Source: a virus. From it: DNA of 58,930 nt. The stretch lies in IMG/VR virus record IMGVR_UViG_3300021389_000024, positions 1 through 58,930 of that record. One strand, written 5' to 3'. Below are positions 1,100-48,972 of the stretch, in pieces (within the stretch, counting starts at the first letter, position 1; every line of letters starts with the position of its first letter). Under the pieces are notes generated by a model, which was given only the letters and a program-made list of their open reading frames with translations, ran no database searches and was not told where the DNA came from. Both the position numbers and the translations under genes were made by a program.

Positions 1100-3114
1100 T
1101 AGATTCCTCTTATTTCATCTATTGATTCGGCAATACAAACTTCATTAACTACTTTCGCAGAAGATACTTCTATTGCAAAATCTTTAAAAACTCTAGGGGG
1201 TAGCCTAAGAATGGGTTCGGGTATATTAGTAGAACTTATACTTACAGTACTACCGGCAGCATTAACATAACTGCCTGAGACTGAGTGTTGTGTACCAGAA
1301 AGAGCAATAGTGCCTGTATAGAACAAAGTGCCATCTCCATAAACTTTTACTGTAACAGGAAAGGCTTCAGCATCTACTTTTACAAAACCCATGCTGGTTG
1401 GTTTAGGCGTAACAAAATCTTTAGACTTCCAAGTGTAGGTTTGATCCGTTGTACCACCTTGAAACTTTTTAATTTGGTTTGCAATAATTAAGTATGCATT
1501 GCCATCATCAGGATCTGTAAATGTACCTCTTACAAGCGCACTGGCTGTTAAAGTAGTAAAAACTTTATTTCCCCCTCGAGGATCAAATATAAAACCACCA
1601 AAACCAGAACCCGTGTTGTAAAAGCCCAAGTACCTACCTTTCCACAAAGTAGCATTAATAGTGCTTGGGTAATATTCAGATTGCCACTGGTCGGGAGTAA
1701 TCAAACCCTCTGTAATTGTTTGCACATTATTACCTGCTGCTGCTACCAAACCTTCTGTACCTGCATATAAAACTACTGTGCCTAAATCTACAATAGAAGT
1801 TTTACTCAAACAGGCTTGCGGGGTTTCCATACGAAGTGCGCTCATAGAAGCAGGATCAGTACCAGCTATAAGATAGGGCCTACCTTCAGTAGTTACAATT
1901 AAACCATTTCCTATAGAAGCTATGCCCACTATGGGGTCTTCTAGTGTAAGCCTATAGCTTGTGGGCCAGGCATGAGGTAAAAACTTTTCTGAAAAACATA
2001 AACGCTTGCCTGTAAAGCCCGCCATTACTCCATTTGGCATTGCAGTTAAACCCTTCATTGGCCCATCTGGATATACATTAGTATCATCGTCTGGTGGTGC
2101 AATCCAATAAGTTGAAGGGATTATCTCTGACAACTCATCATTATCAGATGTATCATCATAACTAGTAGTTGCCATTGCAACTTCTGCAACAAACTGAAAA
2201 GCTGTTGTATTAGAGCCCGTATTAGATCTGTATATACGTTTTGTACCAGCACTAGAACCAAAATTATTATTTGATTTAGCACCGGCTGTTGATAAGTTAC
2301 TCACAGTAATTACAGCGTTGTCATCAGTTGTGATCACTGTAGAAGCTGCCGATGGGGGTCCTTCTTCCCCATAGGAACTTACAAATGTATAAACATAAGA
2401 AGTAGAAAAATCTGGCAAAGCATCTGTTGTAGCATTAAAAGTAGCCCCGTCAGTTACACTACTAGATGTACTAGCCCCAGTTGCGTCTACTGAAACTTTG
2501 ATAGTCAGTGTTGTAGCACTAGGTACTGTTAATATGCGATGTTCTTGATTTAAGTTGTCTGCAGGAACAGCATTTTGAGCACTAAATCCTGCAAGCTTAA
2601 CATATTCTCCAACCGAAGCTCCGTGATTACTAGCCGTGGTAACTGTTATTGAAGGAGAGCCAGTGACCGTAGTTAAAGTAGCGTCAATTGATACCGGTGT
2701 TTTAATTGCAACGGCTGGAGTATTTGGAGGGGCTTCAATTCCCAACCTAAAAAAAGCGTTAGGGTATACAGATCCTCCAATAATATTAGTGCTTCTGCCC
2801 ATACGGGGGAAAGATTGACCAGTCCAATAGACTGTATTGTTAGTGTCGCCGGCAATTGGACCAGGTACAACGTCTACGTCTTCATCAAACTGCAGCCATT
2901 GAGTATCAGTGTATTTATATATGCTTTGTCTATTAGAATTAGACAAAGTGGTTACATCTGCTTTTGGGTTTACAACTGTGTCATCAGTTATAGGGGTTAA
3001 ACGCTGACTTTCTAAGTTAACGTTGGAAGCTGTTTGGGCTAGAGTTTCTTCTAGTAATCGAGGTGAGACCTGCGGAGCAATTCCACCAAACTGGATAAGT
3101 TTAAAATACGCCAT
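1099..3114 (-). CDS. Large tail/structural protein of a podovirus family
   Basis: A 671-aa protein whose N-terminus (LIQFGGIAPQVSPRLL) and central core (FSEKFLPHAWPTSY, then LIVTTEGRPYLIAG and VVLYAGTEGLVAA) match a virion protein family common in short-tailed phages. The family has repeated beta-strand blocks suggesting a propeller-like fold. Its exact role is not known to me; tail hub, stopper or fibre-anchor are all possible. A Thr/Ser-rich insertion lies around residues 140-235. It is the gene directly before the J-like fibre and shares a TAATG junction with it, which supports a distal tail role. No cysteine-rich or enzymatic motif is visible. Confidence 0.7.
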   Translation of the reverse strand: MAYFKLIQFGGIAPQVSPRLLEETLAQTASNVNLESQRLTPITDDTVVNPKADVTTLSNSNRQSIYKYTDTQWLQFDEDVDVVPGPIAGDTNNTVYWTGQSFPRMGRSTNIIGGSVYPNAFFRLGIEAPPNTPAVAIKTPVSIDATLTTVTGSPSITVTTASNHGASVGEYVKLAGFSAQNAVPADNLNQEHRILTVPSATTLTIKVSVDATGASTSSSVTDGATFNATTDALPDFSTSYVYTFVSSYGEEGPPSAASTVITTDDNAVITVSNLSTAGAKSNNNFGSSAGTKRIYRSNTGSNTTAFQFVAEVAMATTSYDDTSDNDELSEIIPSTYWIAPPDDDTNVYPDGPMKGLTAMPNGVMAGFTGKRLCFSEKFLPHAWPTSYRLTLEDPIVGIASIGNGLIVTTEGRPYLIAGTDPASMSALRMETPQACLSKTSIVDLGTVVLYAGTEGLVAAAGNNVQTITEGLITPDQWQSEYYPSTINATLWKGRYLGFYNTGSGFGGFIFDPRGGNKVFTTLTASALVRGTFTDPDDGNAYLIIANQIKKFQGGTTDQTYTWKSKDFVTPKPTSMGFVKVDAEAFPVTVKVYGDGTLFYTGTIALSGTQHSVSGSYVNAAGSTVSISSTNIPEPILRLPPRVFKDFAIEVSSAKVVNEVCIAESIDEIRGI

Positions 3115-3115
3115 A

Positions 3116-3403
3116 TCATCTGAAAGTATACATTATTCCGGCCATAACCGCTGAAAAGACAATCCAAAACACACGTTCACCGTTGCTTACGTCTTTTTTA
3201 TTTAGTTTAGCAGTTTGTTCAACAGTTTCGACTCTGTCTTCAAGTCTATCTAAACGCATAATAAACCTTTCGTTTTGTTTCAATACAGTGGTTACCCTTT
3301 CCTCTATACGAGCAATAGTTATGACAGCGTCTGCAAGCCTGTCTATTTTGTTTTCTAATTTATCTAATCTATTTGATACGTCGTCGATCACTTGTAACTC
3401 CAT
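3116..3403 (-). CDS. Coiled-coil protein with C-terminal membrane anchor, spanin/lysis-accessory-like
   Basis: 95 aa. Residues 5-70 form a heptad-patterned helix with many Glu, Arg, Leu and Val residues. A single hydrophobic segment ends the protein (VFWIVFSAVMAGIMYTF). This topology is seen in small phage membrane proteins beside endolysins, including spanin-like or holin-accessory proteins. It overlaps the 3' end of the M15 endolysin gene by 16 bases and lies two genes from the holin, so a lysis role is inferred from context. It lacks a signal peptide or lipobox, so it is not a typical o-spanin. Confidence 0.6.
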   Translation of the reverse strand: MELQVIDDVSNRLDKLENKIDRLADAVITIARIEERVTTVLKQNERFIMRLDRLEDRVETVEQTAKLNKKDVSNGERVFWIVFSAVMAGIMYTFR

Positions 3404-6934: not shown

Positions 6935-8110
6935 TTATGTTGCGTATCTAAAGATTACTATTCCTGAGCCGCCAGCTTTACCAGCGTAATTCTGTCCGCC
7001 ACCGCCTCCACCGCCTGTGTTAGCTGTGCCAGCTACTCCATTATCAGATCCACCGCCGCCACCGGCACCACCACCGCCAGTACCGCCTGCACCTCCACTA
7101 CCACCATAGCCGGCGCCACCACCGCCGCCTGCGTAGTATGTTCCATTTAACCATTGTTTTCCTGCGCCACCTGCACTACCGTCAGCAGACCCACCAGCCG
7201 AAGCTGCAGCAGATTTGCCTCCACCGCCACCGCCGCCATAAGTTCCACCATTACCACCAAGATTACCTTGACCTGATGTAGCATCCCCAACATTAGCACT
7301 TGTACCACCTGAACCTCTGTAACCAGATGCACCGCCACTTGAGCCACCTGCATTACCTCTACCATCACCACCGTTTGCCCCAGTGTGACCACCGCCACCA
7401 CCACCACCAACTGCTGTTGTTAGAGCTAATCCTGAAACCGAGGAAACGCCTCCATCACTTCCATCTGCTTGGAATCCGCCACCTGCACCGCCTGCACCAA
7501 CTACTACAGTATGAGTTCCACTTAGTGTTTGACCTGTGTATTCAAGCATACCACCAGCACCGCCTCCGCCAGCATAGTATCTACCTCCACCGCCACCACC
7601 TCCGGCAACGATTAGTATATCTACACTACCTTTATCGACTGGTGCAGAAATTGTTCCACTAGATGTAAAAGTGTGGTATGTATACCCACCTGCTGTTGAT
7701 GTTGTACCACCAGTTACAGGAAATGACCCTATCATTGTTGAACCATATCCTATATTTGACCATGCATTAGCATTGCTTGTAGCATCAGTGCAACACCACA
7801 TATTTCCACTATTCTTATTAAGCCACAAAGTACCAACTCCTGTAGATGGGTTTGTGTTTGTTGCAGGATCAGAGGTTGCTACTGTTACATCTGTTAAATC
7901 AGCAAAAGCACTAGCTGCATCTGCAAAAGATAAAGTTCCACTACCATCTGTTTTTAAGAATTGACCATCAGAGCCATCGCTTACATTTAAAGCTGAAATA
8001 CCAACTGCATCGTCTGCAATTAAAGCACTTGTAATAGCATCATCTGCAATCGCAGCAGTGGTTACTGCATCGTCTGCTATTACTCTTGATGTGATCTTAG
8101 TGTTTGCCAT
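6935..8110 (-). CDS. Glycine-rich tail fibre / adhesin
   Basis: 391 aa. Residues 1-65 share the IADDA repeat module and the DGQFLKTDGSGTLSF segment with neighbouring fibres. From ~150 onward it is dominated by glycine runs (GGGGGGG), which in phage adhesins form polyglycine-II helix bundles with variable tip loops. The end GGSGIVIFRYAT is a hallmark of this family. It probably makes a receptor-binding tip. Unlike its neighbours it has no S74 chaperone. The Gly-rich coding stretch gives long spurious frames on both strands. Confidence 0.85.
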   Translation of the reverse strand: MANTKITSRVIADDAVTTAAIADDAITSALIADDAVGISALNVSDGSDGQFLKTDGSGTLSFADAASAFADLTDVTVATSDPATNTNPSTGVGTLWLNKNSGNMWCCTDATSNANAWSNIGYGSTMIGSFPVTGGTTSTAGGYTYHTFTSSGTISAPVDKGSVDILIVAGGGGGGGRYYAGGGGAGGMLEYTGQTLSGTHTVVVGAGGAGGGFQADGSDGGVSSVSGLALTTAVGGGGGGGHTGANGGDGRGNAGGSSGGASGYRGSGGTSANVGDATSGQGNLGGNGGTYGGGGGGGKSAAASAGGSADGSAGGAGKQWLNGTYYAGGGGGAGYGGSGGAGGTGGGGAGGGGGSDNGVAGTANTGGGGGGGQNYAGKAGGSGIVIFRYAT

Positions 8111-10663: not shown

Positions 10664-11089
10664 TTAACTAACTGTTACAGTCCAAGTAATTGTCATTGAG
10701 TCAGACGCACCCTTATTAACTACTGAAAAAACAGTTCTACAAAGTAAGTCACCGGAAGAAGAGGCATTTAAAATACCCGCTTCAGTCACAGCACCAGTAC
10801 CAGTACCAGCTCCAAAGGTAGCTACGTAAGTCACAACAGCACCCGATACAGTAGTACTTGTTAAAGCAACACGACCTAGTTGATTTCCTAAAGCGGAATC
10901 GCCAGCTGCGGCTGCTGTAGAACCACTACCAATTGCCATGTGAGACATAGCAGTTGCAGTAGCATCTTTCATTCGAGAGGCAACATATTCCTTTCCATCA
11001 GTAACTACAAGGTTATTGACTTCTTGGACTGTTTCTCCGTTAAGGGCAATTTTTAACTTACCTGTAAGTTTTAAACCGTCGTTTAACAT
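10664..11089 (-). CDS. Tail/structural protein, small beta-rich
   Basis: 141 aa. It starts with NDGLKLTGKLKIALNGETVQEVNNLVVTDGKEYVASRM and has the pattern MAIGSGSTAAAAGDSALGNQL, a virion protein family commonly found among fibre genes in podoviruses and siphoviruses. It is Ala/Thr/Ser-rich with no charged catalytic cluster. It is flanked on both sides by fibre-type genes, so a tail-fibre connector or tail decoration role is likely. A clear SD (GGAGAAATT) precedes the ATG. Confidence 0.65.
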   Translation of the reverse strand: MLNDGLKLTGKLKIALNGETVQEVNNLVVTDGKEYVASRMKDATATAMSHMAIGSGSTAAAAGDSALGNQLGRVALTSTTVSGAVVTYVATFGAGTGTGAVTEAGILNASSSGDLLCRTVFSVVNKGASDSMTITWTVTVS

Positions 11090-11102
11090 AATTTCTCCAA
11101 AT

Positions 11103-12563
11103 TTAATTTAATACACTAGTGTTAAATGCAGAGGTGTTAAGTACACTACTTGATCCGGAGACCAATACCACATTTATCGATTCTGTTATTGTAGCACTAT
11201 CTGATAAAGATTTACCAAAAGTATGTGCTAAACTTTCTGAGATAGAAGCACTCTCCGTAAAAATATTTCCAGCGCCAGAAGTAAAAACATCAGCTAAACT
11301 TAGAGTCTCACTAAAAGATGTTGAGAATGAATGAGCAATACTCTCTGTAATTGTAGGGGTGTCTGCAAAACTAGTTGAAAAAGTAAGTACAGGAGCACTG
11401 TCACCCACACCCACAATATTTCCTTTGTTTATACCAAAGTCTGTTTGCAGATCATCAGAAGCACTAGCAGTATCGTCTAATGCATAACTGTCTGAAAAAG
11501 CCCGTGCAAATGTAGCTACACGACTAAATGATTCGGACATAACCACAGATTCAGCAACTTGTACGCTAACTGCACCGCCCATACCACTGTGGTTTGTACA
11601 ATAATAATGTAAAGACGCTGGTGTAGATCCAGTTACTTGTATCTCTACGTAAGCACCAGAAGACCCAGGTGTGCCACTTACAGTCACATTAGTTGTGTAT
11701 GCAGAACCCCCACCGTGTGATCCATTTGCTGTTTCTGAAAATCTAAATGGGTGCCCGCTAACACTAGAGTCCGATAAATCAAACTTATATGTTTTACCTA
11801 CATCTAACGTTAGTGCTGGGCTATTAACGCCATCAATGTGATATTTATTGCCTGATCCATATGAGTTTGTAGCAGAAGCAACGGTTACTGTATAAGTAAC
11901 TGTACCGCTTTCTGGTATTGCTTTACCTACCCCCAACACATTGGACTCAGATATAGTAGCTGTTTCAGAGTGCGGTAAACTAATATCTAAAGCAGGCGTA
12001 TCAGAGATTGACAAGGTATCGCTTTTAGCGGGGTCTATACTCAATACTTCTACATCGCTAAAAGATAAAGTATCACTTTTTGCTGGTTCTATACTTAATG
12101 CAGGAGCATCAGACAGTGTACTACTATCATCAAATGCTGTACTAAAAGCAATTGCAGGGGCATCTGCAAGTGTTGGAGTGTCACTAAATGCTCTAACAAA
12201 ATCTACTACTCTACTAAGAGATTCAGTAATACCAACGGTTTCAGATTTACTGCTAGCAAATGCTGAAGCTAGTTCTTCTGCTATAGAAACAGTTTCTGTT
12301 TTTGTTGTACTAAATGTAAGTGCTGGTGCGTCGGTTAAACCAAAACTTTCAGCATTTGGGTGTCCAGAAAGAAAGTAAAGGTTTTTACTATCTGCATCTA
12401 ATAATACATTTACAGCCGATAAATCTACGTACTGTAATGACGTTTGTAAATTTGTAAACGTAACAAGGGATCTAAGATTTTGAAAAACAGAAACGGGTTG
12501 AATCGAATCTGTGTCAACAGTAACCTTTAGGTTGACATAATCAACTGTAAACTTGATGGCCAT
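11103..12563 (-). CDS. Repeat-rich tail protein with embedded cupredoxin-like domain
   Basis: 486 aa. The protein is built from ~17-20-residue repeats of the form SDTPTLxDAPALSFSTA and SESLAHTFSTSFSETL. Inserted at residues ~220-335 is a cupredoxin-like domain with GHPFRF (His271) and YYCTNHSGMG (Cys322, His325, Met328). These are in the order and spacing of type-1 copper ligands. Similar domains are known in marine phage fibres. The start overlaps the stop of the next gene at 12563. It probably forms a virion fibre or decoration; copper binding is only inferred from the residues. Confidence 0.75.
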   Translation of the reverse strand: MAIKFTVDYVNLKVTVDTDSIQPVSVFQNLRSLVTFTNLQTSLQYVDLSAVNVLLDADSKNLYFLSGHPNAESFGLTDAPALTFSTTKTETVSIAEELASAFASSKSETVGITESLSRVVDFVRAFSDTPTLADAPAIAFSTAFDDSSTLSDAPALSIEPAKSDTLSFSDVEVLSIDPAKSDTLSISDTPALDISLPHSETATISESNVLGVGKAIPESGTVTYTVTVASATNSYGSGNKYHIDGVNSPALTLDVGKTYKFDLSDSSVSGHPFRFSETANGSHGGGSAYTTNVTVSGTPGSSGAYVEIQVTGSTPASLHYYCTNHSGMGGAVSVQVAESVVMSESFSRVATFARAFSDSYALDDTASASDDLQTDFGINKGNIVGVGDSAPVLTFSTSFADTPTITESIAHSFSTSFSETLSLADVFTSGAGNIFTESASISESLAHTFGKSLSDSATITESINVVLVSGSSSVLNTSAFNTSVLN

Positions 12564-33437: not shown

Positions 33438-33812
33438 ATGTCTGAATCAAAACAAGGTCGACGCCCTGACCTAAAACTGGGCCTTAAGCAACATACTCTT
33501 AACGGCTGGCAACCAGCTCCTGAGTATCTTAGCGTTAGCATCTACTTCAACGATGATGACCCAGCGTTCTTCGCTAAACTATCATCATTGGTAGAGACTG
33601 GCGGTATATCGCTAAGCGGGGACATCCATCCTCAAGTGAAACTCGTTGAATATTCTCAAGAGTATACAAACTGCTTTAACGGCAAAACTCAAAAGAATGA
33701 CGCAACGCGTAGAGCCTTTGCACCCAACGAATTAGTTGGCTATGTCAAAGTTCCTGAGAAAAAGGAATCTTCAGCACCTGCTGACGAGCAGAAAGAGTTG
33801 AGCTTCAAATGA
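33438..33812 (+). CDS. Early protein of unknown function
   Basis: 124 aa. The sequence has a central core (LSVSIYFNDDDPAFFAKLSSL, then GISLSGDIHPQVKLVEY) and a Lys/Glu/Ser-rich tail ending ELSFK. A nucleic-acid-binding (SSB-like) fold is possible from the strand pattern, but I do not recognise a family. It is the first gene of the plus-strand block, preceded by GGGAGACATT and the duplicated box. Its stop overlaps the next ATG as ATGA. Confidence 0.6.
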   Translation: MSESKQGRRPDLKLGLKQHTLNGWQPAPEYLSVSIYFNDDDPAFFAKLSSLVETGGISLSGDIHPQVKLVEYSQEYTNCFNGKTQKNDATRRAFAPNELVGYVKVPEKKESSAPADEQKELSFK

Positions 33813-34381: not shown

Positions 34382-34410
34382 GTCGACGCAAGGCGTCGGC
34401 TTTTTTTATT
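34382..34410 (+). terminator. Rho-independent terminator ending the first early operon
   Basis: GTCGACGC and GCGTCGGC pair (eight bp, one G-T) around an AAG loop, followed by TTTTTTT. It lies 55 bases after the small membrane gene and just before the iteron region. Confidence 0.85.
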
Positions 34411-34487
34411 GAATGCTTCGTTCAACGTGTGCCCTACTACTATCATCACGTAGTGATGTGGACGGTGCTTGCACCACGGTGAGAAAA

Positions 34488-34776
34488 TGTTCCACATGTT
34501 CCACGCAAAAATCACCTTGTGGAACAAGTATGTGGAACACAACTTTAGTTGCAACCACGGGTGTTCAACGTGTGCTAGCACCGAAATGTTCCAATGTTCC
34601 ATCAAAAACAGAACTTGCGTAAGACTGACCGTCGACCGTTGTTATTTGTTCTTTAATTTTGTTAACCAAAAAGTACTGGAACACATGGAACATTTCCCAT
34701 TTATCCAGTAACCAAGCACCTTTCGCGTGTTCCACGAGGCCCATTTTACGTGGAACATTGTGGAACACGTGGAACA
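34488..34776. repeat. Iteron array, candidate replication origin or operator cluster
   Basis: Twelve copies of TGTTCCAN (both strands) lie within 289 bases. Plus-strand copies start at 34488, 34497, 34587, 34595 and 34728. Minus-strand copies lie at 34519, 34532, 34676, 34685, 34750, 34760 and 34769. Eight are exact TGTTCCAC. Several pairs are 8-10 bases apart, near one helical turn. A further TGTTCAAC at 34562 is a near match. An AT-rich stretch lies at 34638-34676. The 34411-34924 interval shows only overlapping low-quality frames on both strands, so it is judged non-coding. Confidence 0.75.
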
Positions 34777-35567: not shown

Positions 35568-35741
35568 ATGAATGAAATAACCATTGATGAATCTATTCGT
35601 CAACAAGCTAATAACTACAGCTTTATACCTGAGACTATCTCAAGTTTAAAACTACTAGTTATTAATCGTAATCCTACTAGTAAATCAAACCTAGTAGATA
35701 ATATTAATTACTCTCACGCCACAGGAGGTAAACATGAGTAA
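35568..35741 (+). CDS. Small early protein of unknown function
   Basis: 57 aa from ATG 35568, chosen for the ATAGGAGTTTAT upstream; an upstream alternative start is poorer. Ser/Asn-rich (SKSNLVDNINYSHATGGKHE at the end). It overlaps the next gene by eight bases. No family is recognised. Confidence 0.5.
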   Translation: MNEITIDESIRQQANNYSFIPETISSLKLLVINRNPTSKSNLVDNINYSHATGGKHE

Positions 35742-36495
35742 AAGAACTAATCAAACTTTCGTCGATCCAGACGATATCGGTGAGGCTTCACCAATGGAGT
35801 ACAAAACGGAGTCTACTTTAGACGACGCTTCTCCTGATACCAATGGTGATCCAGTAGGTTCTGAAGAAAGAGCCAAACAGGATCCAGTTAAAATGCCTTT
35901 ATGGTATTTTGACAAGTATGATCTTGATGGCAATGGTAAGCCTATCCCAAGCGTTGCACATGTAAATGCTATTATGGATATGCTTCCTCAAAAGATTGAT
36001 ACCGAACCATTCTTTGGTAATGATAAAACAGCAAGTGCAAAGCTTGCTAAGCAATATGACGCTGATGTCAAAGCATTAGTTGATGCGTATCGACCATTGC
36101 TTGCGTATGAGGCTGGTGACACTGGCTTCAACTTCATGATGTTTGCAAATGCTACTTGGGGTAAGTATCTTACTGCTCTTGTAGAATTTGGTAACGATGT
36201 ATCTAGATTCAGTGATCAGGAAATGCCTGACTGGTTAGTTACGCGTGAAGACAATGCATTTGGCATGGGTCGTAAAGCTAGGCTAGTCAGAGATGTCCTT
36301 GCGATTCTTTCTGATGAATTCAAGCTTAAAAATGCTGTCATTACACCAGCCAATGTTAGATCTGCAGTGCAACGCCATTTGCAAGGTTTAGCTACTTGGA
36401 CTTTCAACAAGCATGCTGATTCTAGCGCTAGAGTATCTGGCAAGCTAAATGAGGCTAATGCAGAGTATGTCCAAGGTACATTGGCTTCTATGTAA
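35734..36495 (+). CDS. Early protein of unknown function (253 aa)
   Basis: 253 aa with an acidic N-terminal ~50 residues, then a helical core (KQYDADVKALVDAYRPLLAYEAG, then LTALVEFGNDVSRFSD) and KARLVRDVLAILSDE. There are no catalytic motifs, zinc pairs or signal peptide. It has an ideal SD (ACAGGAGGTAAAC). It is followed by a ~250-base structured non-coding region, so its mRNA may carry that structure at its 3' end. A core host-takeover or recombination role is possible but unsupported. Confidence 0.55.
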   Translation: MSKRTNQTFVDPDDIGEASPMEYKTESTLDDASPDTNGDPVGSEERAKQDPVKMPLWYFDKYDLDGNGKPIPSVAHVNAIMDMLPQKIDTEPFFGNDKTASAKLAKQYDADVKALVDAYRPLLAYEAGDTGFNFMMFANATWGKYLTALVEFGNDVSRFSDQEMPDWLVTREDNAFGMGRKARLVRDVLAILSDEFKLKNAVITPANVRSAVQRHLQGLATWTFNKHADSSARVSGKLNEANAEYVQGTLASM

Positions 36496-38877: not shown

Positions 38878-39900
38878 ATGAACAACATTAACCCAAACGA
38901 TCTTAAACAAGAGATCAAAGATAACATCCGTACAGGACTTAACACCATGATATGGGGTGGGCCAGGTATTGGTAAGTCAGATATACCACAACAGGTAGCT
39001 GATGAACTAGATATACCTTTGCTTGACTTTCGTGCCAACTTATTCGACCCAGTCGATGTGCGTGGCATACCTCACATTATGCAAGAACAAGAAACAGGGA
39101 AGCGTTTTACACGTTGGGCAGTGCCTGATGTGTTTCCTATTGCATCACGTGATGGCGAAACGGGAATTCTCTTCATCGACGAATTGCCAACTGCACCACC
39201 AGCTACGCAGAACGCTTTCCTGCAACTCTTGTTAACTCGACAAATTGGCGATTATGAAATGCCAGTTGGCTGGTCAATTGTTGCCGCAGGTAACAGACTG
39301 ACTGACTCAGCTGCTGTATTCCAAATGCCAACACCAGTACGTAATCGTCTATTGCATTACGAACTCGAAGCAAGCATTGATGACTGGGTTGAATGGGCTT
39401 TCAAAAATGGTATTAACTCAGAAGTTATTGGCTTCTTACGTTACAGACCTGGTTTACTTAACAGTTTCAAAGCTGACGAATATGCATTCCCAACACCACG
39501 TTCGTGGGCATTTGTTGACAAAAAGCTAGCCAATCGACCGTCGACCGCCAACGACGATACATTGTTCTTTGGTGTCGCAGCGACAGTCGGCGACGGCCCA
39601 GCTGGCGAGTTTGTTGCTTACAAACAAATAGCTGACAAGCTACAAGATGTCGACGAACTTATCAAAGATCCTGGTAAATACAAGAAAGATGACAACCCAG
39701 CTGTCTTGTATGCACTTTCAACATCTATCGCCACCCGAGCGAGTGATGACACTCTCGAAAATATTATCAAAGTATGCAACAAACTCCCATCAGAGTTCCA
39801 AGTAATACTAATGAAAGGTATTTTTGCAATCAACAAAGACTTTATCAAGAATCAATTTTGTACTAAATGGATTCAAGATAATCACGGCTTATTATCATAG
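38878..39900 (+). CDS. MoxR-family AAA+ ATPase
   Basis: 340 aa. Walker A GGPGIGKS lies at ~24-31, Walker B GILFIDELP at ~96, sensor-type VAAGNR and an arginine-finger region PTPVRNRLLHYEL. This order and the inserted LLLTRQIGDYEMP segment mark MoxR AAA+ ATPases, which act as chaperones for partner proteins together with VWA-domain proteins. The VWA/metallopeptidase partner is encoded 1.2 kb downstream. It follows an AGGAGG SD. Confidence 0.88.
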   Translation: MNNINPNDLKQEIKDNIRTGLNTMIWGGPGIGKSDIPQQVADELDIPLLDFRANLFDPVDVRGIPHIMQEQETGKRFTRWAVPDVFPIASRDGETGILFIDELPTAPPATQNAFLQLLLTRQIGDYEMPVGWSIVAAGNRLTDSAAVFQMPTPVRNRLLHYELEASIDDWVEWAFKNGINSEVIGFLRYRPGLLNSFKADEYAFPTPRSWAFVDKKLANRPSTANDDTLFFGVAATVGDGPAGEFVAYKQIADKLQDVDELIKDPGKYKKDDNPAVLYALSTSIATRASDDTLENIIKVCNKLPSEFQVILMKGIFAINKDFIKNQFCTKWIQDNHGLLS

Positions 39901-41054: not shown

Positions 41055-42152
41055 ATGAGTCAGAATTTTACAAATGCACGCACACAACTTGTGCTCAACC
41101 AGCCATTCTTTGGCACCCTTTGTCTTCGCCTCAAACCCGTTGAACGTGATGACATGGATACGGGTGCCACAGATGGTGTGCATCTTTTCTATAATCCCAA
41201 ATGGTTTGACAAATTGCAACCATTAGAACGTATTGGTTTTCTTGCGCACGAAGTTATGCATGTTGTGCTTATGCACATATTTCGTAGAGAAGAACGTCAA
41301 CCACAAAAGTGGAATGTTGCATGCGACTATGCAGAAAATTATTTACTCAAAGAAGCTAACTTTATATTACCTAAAGGTGCTTTGCTTGATTTGCAATACG
41401 ACAACATGAATGCTGAAGAAATATACAACTTACTTCCTGAGCCCGAAGGTGGCTGGGAATCGTTGGCCGCTGACTTTGGTAATTGTGGCGCTGTGCTTGA
41501 TCATCCTGGCACTGACGACGGTAGCATTGGTAAAGCTAAAGCAGAACTTACTGTTGCAATCAATCAAGCAGCAGAAAGTGCACGCAAAGCTGGCAAGCTA
41601 CCTGGCTCACTAGAATCTATACTTGATGAAATTAAAGAACCCAAAGTATGTTGGAAACAAGTGCTTGCTAGATTCTTGCGTTCTAACAACACAGACGACT
41701 TTAGTTGGCAAAAACCTAATCGCCGTTTTATTGGCCAAGGTTTGTATCTACCTTCTATGTACAATCCATCAGTCGATGAGATTGCAGTTGTGTCTGACAC
41801 ATCAGGTTCTAGAACTGACGAAGAACTAAATCAAGACCTTGCAGAAATTTCTTCTATTATTCTTGATGCCAATCCTACTAAAGTTCACTTTCTAGAAGTT
41901 GATACTGAAGTACAAAATTACACTGAGTACACACGCGAGTCTCTTCCTCTTAAAACTACTATGGTAGGCAGAGGTGGAACTTGTTTCTCACCTGGTATTG
42001 AATACATAAACGAAAATTATCCAAATGTTAGTGCTTTGATCTATCTTACAGATCTTGAATCTAACGACTTTGGAGAACAACCAAATTATCCGGTTTTGTG
42101 GATAACAACTCATGAAGGAGAAGCCCCTTATGGCGAAATCATCAAAATTTGA
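41055..42152 (+). CDS. Metallopeptidase-like / VWA domain protein (DUF2201 type)
   Basis: 365 aa. The N-terminal half carries a zincin motif His65-Glu-Val-Met-His69 with a following VLMHIFRREER helix, as in DUF2201-type putative metallopeptidases. The C-terminal half is a von Willebrand factor A fold with an intact MIDAS start (VVSDTSGSRTDEE, near residue 247) and GRGGTCFSPGIEYI. These proteins pair with MoxR ATPases in bacteria and phages. The gene is followed by three small membrane-protein genes. Confidence 0.85.
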   Translation: MSQNFTNARTQLVLNQPFFGTLCLRLKPVERDDMDTGATDGVHLFYNPKWFDKLQPLERIGFLAHEVMHVVLMHIFRREERQPQKWNVACDYAENYLLKEANFILPKGALLDLQYDNMNAEEIYNLLPEPEGGWESLAADFGNCGAVLDHPGTDDGSIGKAKAELTVAINQAAESARKAGKLPGSLESILDEIKEPKVCWKQVLARFLRSNNTDDFSWQKPNRRFIGQGLYLPSMYNPSVDEIAVVSDTSGSRTDEELNQDLAEISSIILDANPTKVHFLEVDTEVQNYTEYTRESLPLKTTMVGRGGTCFSPGIEYINENYPNVSALIYLTDLESNDFGEQPNYPVLWITTHEGEAPYGEIIKI

Positions 42153-46515: not shown

Positions 46516-48972
46516 ATGGAATTAGTTTTCTTAAAAGCAAAGCAACGCCTTGCAAAAGAAATATCAAACAAAGGTACTACACCTTACCCACTTACTAAAA
46601 ACTTTACATCTGAACATGTACAAGTATCTAAAACTAAAAAAGGTTTACACACTTTATTAAAAACTTTACAAACCCAAGCAGCATCTGGTGCTTGTTTGCA
46701 TAAAGGTTTGTTAAAACGCCCACTTGAAAACGAATCACGAGCTATGATGGCTGACCGTGTAGCGTCAACAGAGTTATTAGTTCTTGATATAGATGGTATA
46801 CAAATGCCAGGCAGCCTGACAGATGTACGCACAGTAGCAGAAAAAATAATTGCACAACTACCAGAGTGTTTTCAAGATGTAAGTTATATAGCCCAAGCAA
46901 GTGCATCTTTAGGATTTAAAAAAGATAAAGTATCTATGCACTTTTTCTTTTTATTAGATCAACCCACCCAACCTAAAATACTAAAAGAATGGTTTAAATT
47001 ATTAAATTACGAAACAGACATCTTGTCATCTCAACTGTCTTTGTCTGCAAACGGACAAAGCTTATCTTACAAATTAGACCCCAGTGTTGCTGAAAATTCT
47101 AAAATAATTTATATAGCACCACCTACTTTTAAAGATAACATACAAGATCCCATCTCATCAGATAGGTTTGTACTAGTCGAACGTGGTTCGGTAACCATAG
47201 ATCCTAGACCCTTGTTAGTTCATGTTAACCCAGAACGCGTACATAACTTAGGCGTTCAGGTTAAAGATGGACTGCGTAAAAAACTTAATTTACCTAAAAA
47301 AACAAGCAAACTAAGCACTGTAAGCATTGGGGGAGAAGCACAAGAAGTGTTACAAAACCCAGACAAAATGACTATTGAAATATCAAGAGTTAATGAACCC
47401 TATGTTAACTGTAATGTTAACGGAGGCGACAGCAACGGCTACTACTTTGTATTAACTAACCCCCATTACATGTACAACTTTAAAGGCGAACCTGTATGGG
47501 AGATACAAAAAGCCGACCCAGATTTTTATCGAAACATATTTGAAATTTTTGCAGATAAAATTGATAAAGATAAAAAAATAAAACCAGTCGCATTACGTGA
47601 CTTTTACACTGACACTTACTATAACGGAATATACGATGAAACAACCCAACAATTTACCAACGACTACCCCCTCACGCCCACCAATAAGCAGTCTATTGAT
47701 GACTTTATGCGCTCTCATAATCGCCCTTCCTTGGATTACATTCCTGATGCTAGGGTCGTATTTGATCCAAGCAATAACAAAGGTATTGAGTTAGACGAAG
47801 CTCCTTACTACGTAAACTTGTATAGAAAAACTGAGTACATGTTAAAACAAGAAGAACATGTATCGGAGTTAACTTACGGGGGAGCTGAAAAATTACACAC
47901 AATAACACCACACATAGCACAGCTTTTGATGCATGTATTGGGTAATGGTAAAACTGAGTTTGAACACTTTATTAATTGGTTAGCTTATATTTATCAAAAC
48001 AAAAACAAAGCTATGACTGCTTGGATATTTACAGGCGTACCTGGAACTGGCAAGGGCTTATTTGTACACAAAGTACTTAAACCTTTATTTGGTGAACAAC
48101 AAACACCAATGCGAGCTTTAGAAAACATTGAAGAACAATTCAACTTGTACATGAGAACAGCACTCTTTTTAGTAGTAGATGAATTTAGAATGGGAGACGC
48201 AGGTAGCATAGGTAAAATGGCTGACAAACTTAAACACCAAATTACTGAACCCAACCTAACTATTCGTGCAATGCGTTCTAATCAAATAGAACTACCTAGC
48301 TTTTGTAACTTTTTGTTTTTAACTAATAGAGCAGACGCAGTCAAAATAGAGGAAGGCGATCGGCGTTACAACGTAGCCCCACGCCAAGAAGTAAAGCTAG
48401 AAAATGCTAACGCAGATCTTATTAACAATATGGATAAACTTGAACAAGAACTTTATATATTTGCTGGTGTGTTAAACAAGTTCCAAGTAGATCAGCGTAT
48501 GGCTCATACAGCTTTAGAAAATGAAGCTAAAATACAAATGAAAAACATTTCAATGTCTGTACTTGAAGAATTTGCAGCTGCAGTACGACAACGCAACCTT
48601 GAATATTTTACAGAAGTATTAGATATACCTCTTACAAATACTTTTGATGCTGGAGGTATTAGTACAGCACAAAGATACCTTAAGTATTGGATAGCAGAAG
48701 TAGGTAATGAAATAATTATACCTATGTCTCAGTTTAAATTAGTGTATGACATACTTACTGACAGTCGTAACAAATTATCTACAAGAGACTTTACAAAAGC
48801 TATGTCTAGGTTAAATATTAAAACTTCTAGAAAACGTGTAAGTGCAGATAAAAATGCCTCTATACCTAGAGGGGTTGTATTAACTTGGAAATTAGACGAC
48901 AATATTCGTAATTCTTTAATTAAAGAACATTTTGAAGATAGAGATAATTTACTATTACAAAAAACTAGCTAG
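46516..48972 (+). CDS. Primase-helicase (AEP-like primase plus SF3-type helicase)
   Basis: 818 aa. The N-terminal half has an archaeo-eukaryotic primase-like core: LLVLDIDG near residue 92 and KVSMHFFFLLD near 137. The C-terminal half is an SF3/D5-type AAA+ helicase with Walker A GVPGTGKG (~507), Walker B ALFLVVDEFR, sensor FCNFLFLTNR and the Arg region GDRRYNV. It would prime and unwind at the origin. It lies between CsrA and the nuclease-helicase genes. Confidence 0.88.
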   Translation: MELVFLKAKQRLAKEISNKGTTPYPLTKNFTSEHVQVSKTKKGLHTLLKTLQTQAASGACLHKGLLKRPLENESRAMMADRVASTELLVLDIDGIQMPGSLTDVRTVAEKIIAQLPECFQDVSYIAQASASLGFKKDKVSMHFFFLLDQPTQPKILKEWFKLLNYETDILSSQLSLSANGQSLSYKLDPSVAENSKIIYIAPPTFKDNIQDPISSDRFVLVERGSVTIDPRPLLVHVNPERVHNLGVQVKDGLRKKLNLPKKTSKLSTVSIGGEAQEVLQNPDKMTIEISRVNEPYVNCNVNGGDSNGYYFVLTNPHYMYNFKGEPVWEIQKADPDFYRNIFEIFADKIDKDKKIKPVALRDFYTDTYYNGIYDETTQQFTNDYPLTPTNKQSIDDFMRSHNRPSLDYIPDARVVFDPSNNKGIELDEAPYYVNLYRKTEYMLKQEEHVSELTYGGAEKLHTITPHIAQLLMHVLGNGKTEFEHFINWLAYIYQNKNKAMTAWIFTGVPGTGKGLFVHKVLKPLFGEQQTPMRALENIEEQFNLYMRTALFLVVDEFRMGDAGSIGKMADKLKHQITEPNLTIRAMRSNQIELPSFCNFLFLTNRADAVKIEEGDRRYNVAPRQEVKLENANADLINNMDKLEQELYIFAGVLNKFQVDQRMAHTALENEAKIQMKNISMSVLEEFAAAVRQRNLEYFTEVLDIPLTNTFDAGGISTAQRYLKYWIAEVGNEIIIPMSQFKLVYDILTDSRNKLSTRDFTKAMSRLNIKTSRKRVSADKNASIPRGVVLTWKLDDNIRNSLIKEHFEDRDNLLLQKTS

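Follow-up and report, generated by a model that had tools for sequence, protein, structure and literature searches.

A rigid twelve-site array in marine phages is a candidate replication origin whose repeat word covaries with the C-terminal domain of the phage primase-helicase

The alpha protein of satellite phage P4 combines several origin functions in a single polypeptide, which serves as primase and helicase and attaches to the origin repeats through a winged helix (PMC4234260). In the origins of phage-inducible chromosomal islands (PICI), an AT-rich region lies between two iteron sets (PMC6092414), and the Rep protein of Staphylococcus aureus pathogenicity islands (SaPI) and the Cch2 protein of SCCmec both recognize their origins via a C-terminal domain (PMC7581432). 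Here we describe an array of short repeated sites at 34488-34776 of a marine phage genome, IMG/VR virus record IMGVR_UViG_3300021389_000024, analysed over its whole 58,930 nucleotides (“the window”). We consider it very likely that this array is the replication origin of the phage, and that the phage primase-helicase binds the iterons with a C-terminal winged helix and would melt the AT-rich core. Across related genomes the geometry of the array is constant, its sites change in concert, and their word covaries with the wing of that domain; we infer that the domain binds the iterons and that the array has origin activity. An initial annotation of the window had offered the array as a candidate origin built from initiator or repressor sites and had named the primase-helicase for testing, a proposal that these three observations support. 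Our literature search, which was confined to open-access papers, found no report of the array among the papers listed.

The 289 bp of the array hold 12 exact copies of TGTTCCA, five on the + strand and seven on the - strand. Eight extend to TGTTCCAC, and the next base in the remaining four is A, T, G and T. Measured from the first site, the offsets and strands are 0+, 9+, 32-, 45-, 99+, 107+, 189-, 198-, 240+, 263-, 273- and 282-, with the AT-rich stretch between the sixth and seventh. Sites 1-2 (34488-34503, + strand; TGTTCCAC and TGTTCCAC, 9 bp apart) point toward sites 3-4 (34520-34539, - strand, spacing 13 bp); sites 5-6 (34587-34601, + strand, spacing 8 bp) form the left edge of the core region and sites 7-8 (34677-34692, - strand, spacing 9 bp) the right edge of the AT-rich core; and site 9 (34728-34734, + strand) is followed by sites 10-12 (34751-34776, - strand, spacings 10 and 9 bp). 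The layout is one of three convergent groups with the AT-rich core inside the middle group. In this the sites depart from the initial annotation, as they are not plain direct iterons. The core itself (34636-34676, 73% AT), a candidate DNA-unwinding element between site pairs 5/6 and 7/8, had been seen by the initial annotation, as had the dense cluster of sites, the neighbour spacings of 8-10 bp and a terminator before the array, which we find as an intrinsic-terminator-like hairpin with an 8-pair stem and then a T run (34382-34400, + strand).

Such a cluster is well beyond chance. TGTTCCA is the most clustered 7-mer of the window, where it occurs 20 times against a mean of 8.75 and a maximum of 16 in shuffled sequences, and the eight copies outside the array are at chance level, so that the word is not frequent elsewhere. 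In 100 Markov-1 simulations, 289 bp held at most 3 copies of TGTTCCA, and 12 copies were not attained by any 7-mer. Open reading frames (ORFs) of 60-99 amino acids, called mechanically, cross the region; because relatives differ here by indels of 1-9 bases and diverge strongly between the sites, translation is disfavoured and the earlier description of the region as non-coding appears sound.

The repeats persist in relatives, which were gathered by scans with neighbouring proteins and by terminase alignment; none of the three outcomes that the initial annotation had named as refuting was seen. An array was found in 25 of 25 terL contigs having at least 3.5 kb upstream of terL, and about 60 contigs in all carry one besides the window. 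The array is kept with equal 12-position geometry although the small genes flanking it are poorly conserved. Site order, strand and spacing are nearly unchanged in the groups whose words are TGTTCC and GGTTCC, and somewhat looser in the TGTTAC group. The clearest change in geometry is a shortening by 9 bases, about one helical turn, between sites 9 and 10, which are 23 bp apart in the window and 14 bp apart in many GGTTCC phages. Between the middle pairs lie an AT-rich stretch and a conserved element, GACCGTCGACCGTTGTT (core element at 34626-34643, + strand, in the window), which alignment shows to be kept across most dialects. Whole arrays are written in one dialect or another, the words being (A/G)TGTTCCAC, TGGTTCCAC, TGTTACAG and KGTACC. 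The dialect word occupies 11-12 of 12 sites in TGTTCC arrays, 7-11 of about 12 in GGTTCC arrays, 9-12 in TGTTAC arrays and 12 in KGTACC arrays. Changes of word strike all or most sites of an array together, as is expected if one protein reads all of them.

The protein that follows the dialect is the primase-helicase (46516-48972, + strand), which we take as the putative initiator. It is 818 amino acids long and belongs to the DUF5906 / D5-type SF3 helicases, an assignment given by matches to Pfam PF19263 (E 2e-17) and, for residues 467-700, to the NrS-1 primase structures 6k9c/6k9e in the PDB (E 4e-29). Residues 8-228 match a PHROG annotated “replication origin binding”, and the primase part is called only from PHROG primase matches and an N-terminal DxD motif. 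Among 26 genomes having both the array and this protein, residues 777/779 in the wing loop of the C-terminal domain are A or S / K in all five TGTTCC genomes (an A/S-x-K wing) and K/R in all 19 GGTTCC genomes (a K-x-R wing); the two TGTTAC genomes both have a shortened wing together with the changes K769T and R772V. In a tree of residues 1-640, the GGTTCC phage L132 and the TGTTAC phage L147 are sisters (support 100/98) beside the TGTTCC phage L134. In blocks of 40 residues, identity between the two sisters is 75-97% up to about residue 720 and 55% in 761-800. In the primase-helicase, 28 residues are common to the two TGTTAC phages alone, and 18 of these lie beyond residue 600; the mirror control gives 3, and the other proteins among eleven compared in five genomes give no clear excess. 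In this protein set, the C-terminal end of the primase-helicase alone follows the dialect.

Further wing and helix types (NVVTRRKRVSSDK, NVLIKRKRVSSDK) occur in the primase-helicases of L141, L146, L149, L151, L157, L160 and L165. No array was seen on the contigs of L149, L151, L157, L160 and L165 or of L141 and L146; we predict from the new types that these phages would use further site dialects.

Dialect tracking and AlphaFold models both direct attention to residues 725-818 (48688-48969, + strand), a predicted winged-helix domain and the putative iteron-binding domain. The model runs strand, helix, helix, strand, wing, strand, with a mean predicted local distance difference test (pLDDT) score of 69; in it, helix 756-765 would be the recognition helix and residues 775-784 (48838-48867, + strand; A777 and K779 in the window) the wing. 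By sequence the domain has no match in the PDB or Pfam, and structure searches with both C-terminal models gave no match at E 0.001. Of the PDB structures, the DNA-bound RFX winged helix matches best (Z 5.1, root-mean-square deviation 2.7 A over 60 residues), a similarity that at this score may reflect only a common arrangement. The RFX DNA-binding domain reads DNA largely through its wing.

We propose that the C-terminal winged helix of the primase-helicase would bind the sites of 7-8 bases, and that the convergent groups would load two helicase assemblies, one on each side of the AT-rich core. The helicase would melt the core and then unwind outward, the primase-helicase itself would prime DNA synthesis, and the family-A DNA polymerase of the phage would extend the primers. 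A switch of dialect would come about when recombination or mutation replaces the reading domain and the array together. We further hypothesize, with confidence about evenly divided, that this marine phage family keeps a rigid 12-site origin scaffold and repeatedly swaps the word together with the C-terminal wing of an initiator encoded about 10-12 kb away. Such a system would amount to a natural origin code with switchable specificity, the word being chosen by the wing and not by the recognition helix.

Several observations weigh against the origin reading. The candidate origin is 12 kb from the gene of its putative initiator, unlike the arrangement in SaPI, the fold model of the C-terminal domain is only of moderate quality at a pLDDT of 69, and its matches to solved structures are weak. 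The correspondence of R779 with G at base 1 is imperfect: the KGTACC phage L180 has a K-x-R wing, but 8 of its sites carry T and 4 carry G, which weakens the stricter rule that R779 means G at base 1. As many as 5 sites of a GGTTCC array can still read TGTTCC. A single clade holds most GGTTCC genomes, so that independent switches are few, about four when counted on the tree by eye. In the TGTTAC genome G029, most proteins resemble those of its GGTTCC sister, and the exceptions, which resemble the other TGTTAC phage, are the HNH gene and a small ORF beside the array; on this pattern, the array region and the C-terminal domain seem to have been exchanged as separate tracts. Finally, the GC-skew switch that the initial annotation suggested looking for does have its minimum at 34-35 kb, at the array, but gene direction changes near 33.3 kb and confounds it, and GC skew was not used as origin evidence for this reason.

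The same comparisons bear on other readings of the array. If a separate small DNA-binding protein, a repressor or activator, bound the sites to control the promoter of the early operon, spaced sites between a terminator and the early genes would be in place, as such spacing is typical of operators. We regard this as improbable, since phages that share a word have different small genes beside the array, and only the primase-helicase follows the word. The protein encoded downstream of the array (35734-36495) does not follow the dialect either, being 34-38% identical between several phages of the same word and 71% identical between two of different words. The early promoter-like box of the initial annotation did not hold up, as 10 promoter-like sites occur in 4 kb against 10.4 in shuffles; with no promoter excess and no flanking gene following the dialect, the operator reading was rejected. 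A dual role, in which the array is an origin and also an autoregulatory or packaging site, and the primase-helicase or the terminase switches between replication, transcription and packaging, is improbable to a like degree. The array does have the terminase genes 2 kb away and the early operon downstream of it, and sites 1-4 and 9-12, which are outside the AT-rich core, could serve a second function; the terminase small subunit, however, has just two conservative residue differences following the word and no excess of dialect-shared residues. A packaging site was rejected because this subunit does not track the dialect.

That the sites belong to a host protein, DnaA or ParB, seems very unlikely. 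TGTTCCACA differs by one base from the DnaA box TTWTNCACA, a parS-type palindrome has TGTTCCAC as one of its halves, and the GGTTCC relatives L016 and L084 contain the full palindrome TGTTCCACGTGGAACA, a form known from bacterial parS sites, close to site 6 of the array. Yet between close phages the sites switch jointly to GGTTCCAC, TGTTACAG or KGTACC, which takes them further from both host motifs, and their word follows a phage protein. No site fits the DnaA box, as every one has G at position 2, and the other dialects fit worse; the window array has no parS-like palindrome, the 16-bp form TGTTNCACGTGNAACA being absent from it and present once each in L016 and L084. The least credible alternative, to which we give almost no weight, is a structured RNA with three hairpins formed by opposed sites. 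Such sites are complementary by construction, but across 23 aligned arrays the pairing of opposed sites is 0.90-0.97 over motif offsets 1-6 and falls to 0.71 and 0.66 on the two edges and to 0.36-0.53 outside, and one stem sequence would have to serve all hairpins. Pairing that stops at the site edges favours protein sites over RNA stems, and RNA hairpins were rejected on this ground.

An origin read by the primase-helicase would work like the P4 alpha/ori and SaPI/PICI Rep/ori systems, by analogy; we do not claim membership in either, because no homology with P4 alpha was detected and 12 kb separate the array from the gene. The 8-bp type 1 repeats of P4 ori and crr, mostly TGTTCACC in the P4 record, likewise stand on both strands, 9-11 bp apart within groups, around an AT-rich stretch. 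P4 differs in its word (TGTTCACC against TGTTCCAC), in having two cis sites, ori and crr, against one array in the window, and in the Toprim-type primase of alpha (PMC4234260). Neither BLASTP nor hhalign gave a credible alignment of alpha with the window primase-helicase or its C-terminal domain. As in PICI, an AT-rich element (34636-34676) is flanked by two sets of iterons, sites 5/6 and 7/8. The origins read by SaPI/PICI Rep (Pri-Rep) and Cch2, however, lie directly downstream of the rep gene, whereas the window array is 12 kb upstream; those elements are satellites and mobile islands and this is an ordinary tailed phage, likened to them by description and not by sequence. The primase-polymerase of Nitratiruptor phage NrS-1 has a related helicase domain (E 4e-29), but the match spans residues 467-700 only and leaves the C-terminal domain outside.

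Among the nearest named phages, Aeromonas phiA008 and the Pseudomonas KPP25 group (Kochitakasuvirus), the latter has a homologous primase-helicase (30%), terminase and polymerase, and an intergenic TGTTACGA array in its early region. KPP25 itself (L022, NC_024123.1) carries two such arrays, at 7621-8052 and 39484-39769, about 31.9 kb apart on its 64.1-kb circular map; both have an 8-bp tandem pair next to a stretch rich in AT. It differs from the window in its word, which is related to that of the window but not the same, in a looser geometry and in this second copy on the far side of the genome. The tail of its primase-helicase aligns in register with a short wing, like that of the TGTTAC phages, although profile comparison of the C-terminal domain was not significant with KPP25 or with P4 alpha. 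Phage records have no feature annotated under the first KPP25 array, and the parts seen of a paper on the relative CRPAP1904 describe no origin. KPP25 also has a dense tandem repeat of the CAGCCCAGC type at 11065-11530, inside the coding region annotated gp37. No comparable array was found in phiA008 (33% primase-helicase identity), nor any array in bases 1-50000 of Roseobacter phage CRP-7. At 2800-3230, phiA008 (L229) has 415 intergenic bases that contain an AT-rich stretch as well as inverted repeats (CCCTCTAGAG..., ACGGTGGTA...); this may be an origin of another kind.

In the window, the structural genes up to about 33.2 kb point leftward and the early and replication genes point rightward, and 44.5-51.2 kb encodes the family-A DNA polymerase, the DUF5906 primase-helicase, a PD-(D/E)XK exonuclease and an SNF2-like helicase. 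Two further proteins are conserved in these phages' early region, a MoxR-type ATPase (38878-39900) and a VWA/metallopeptidase DUF2201 protein (41055-42152). ACTATCATCA, often as TACTATCATCA, occurs at 34439-34448 and also at 33578 and 12123; it is kept just upstream of the array in many relatives and is sometimes repeated (L015, L180). The 60.8-kb contig L230 (PBPT01000002.1), filed under a Neomarinimicrobiota metagenome-assembled genome, carries a phage-type primase-helicase and an array, and for this reason is probably phage DNA binned with that genome.

For most phages both the origin and the initiator are unknown; here, comparative data alone point to an origin and to the domain that would read it. 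The proposal covers a large uncultured marine group and, less firmly, the isolated Pseudomonas phages of the KPP25 group, which lack an annotated origin. The paired dialects are ready-made swaps for studying how winged helices choose DNA and how the specificities of origin and initiator change jointly. If our hypothesis is correct, the origins of closely related phages would be incompatible, and, when a cell is co-infected, a switch in replication specificity could affect which phages can exploit one another or interfere.
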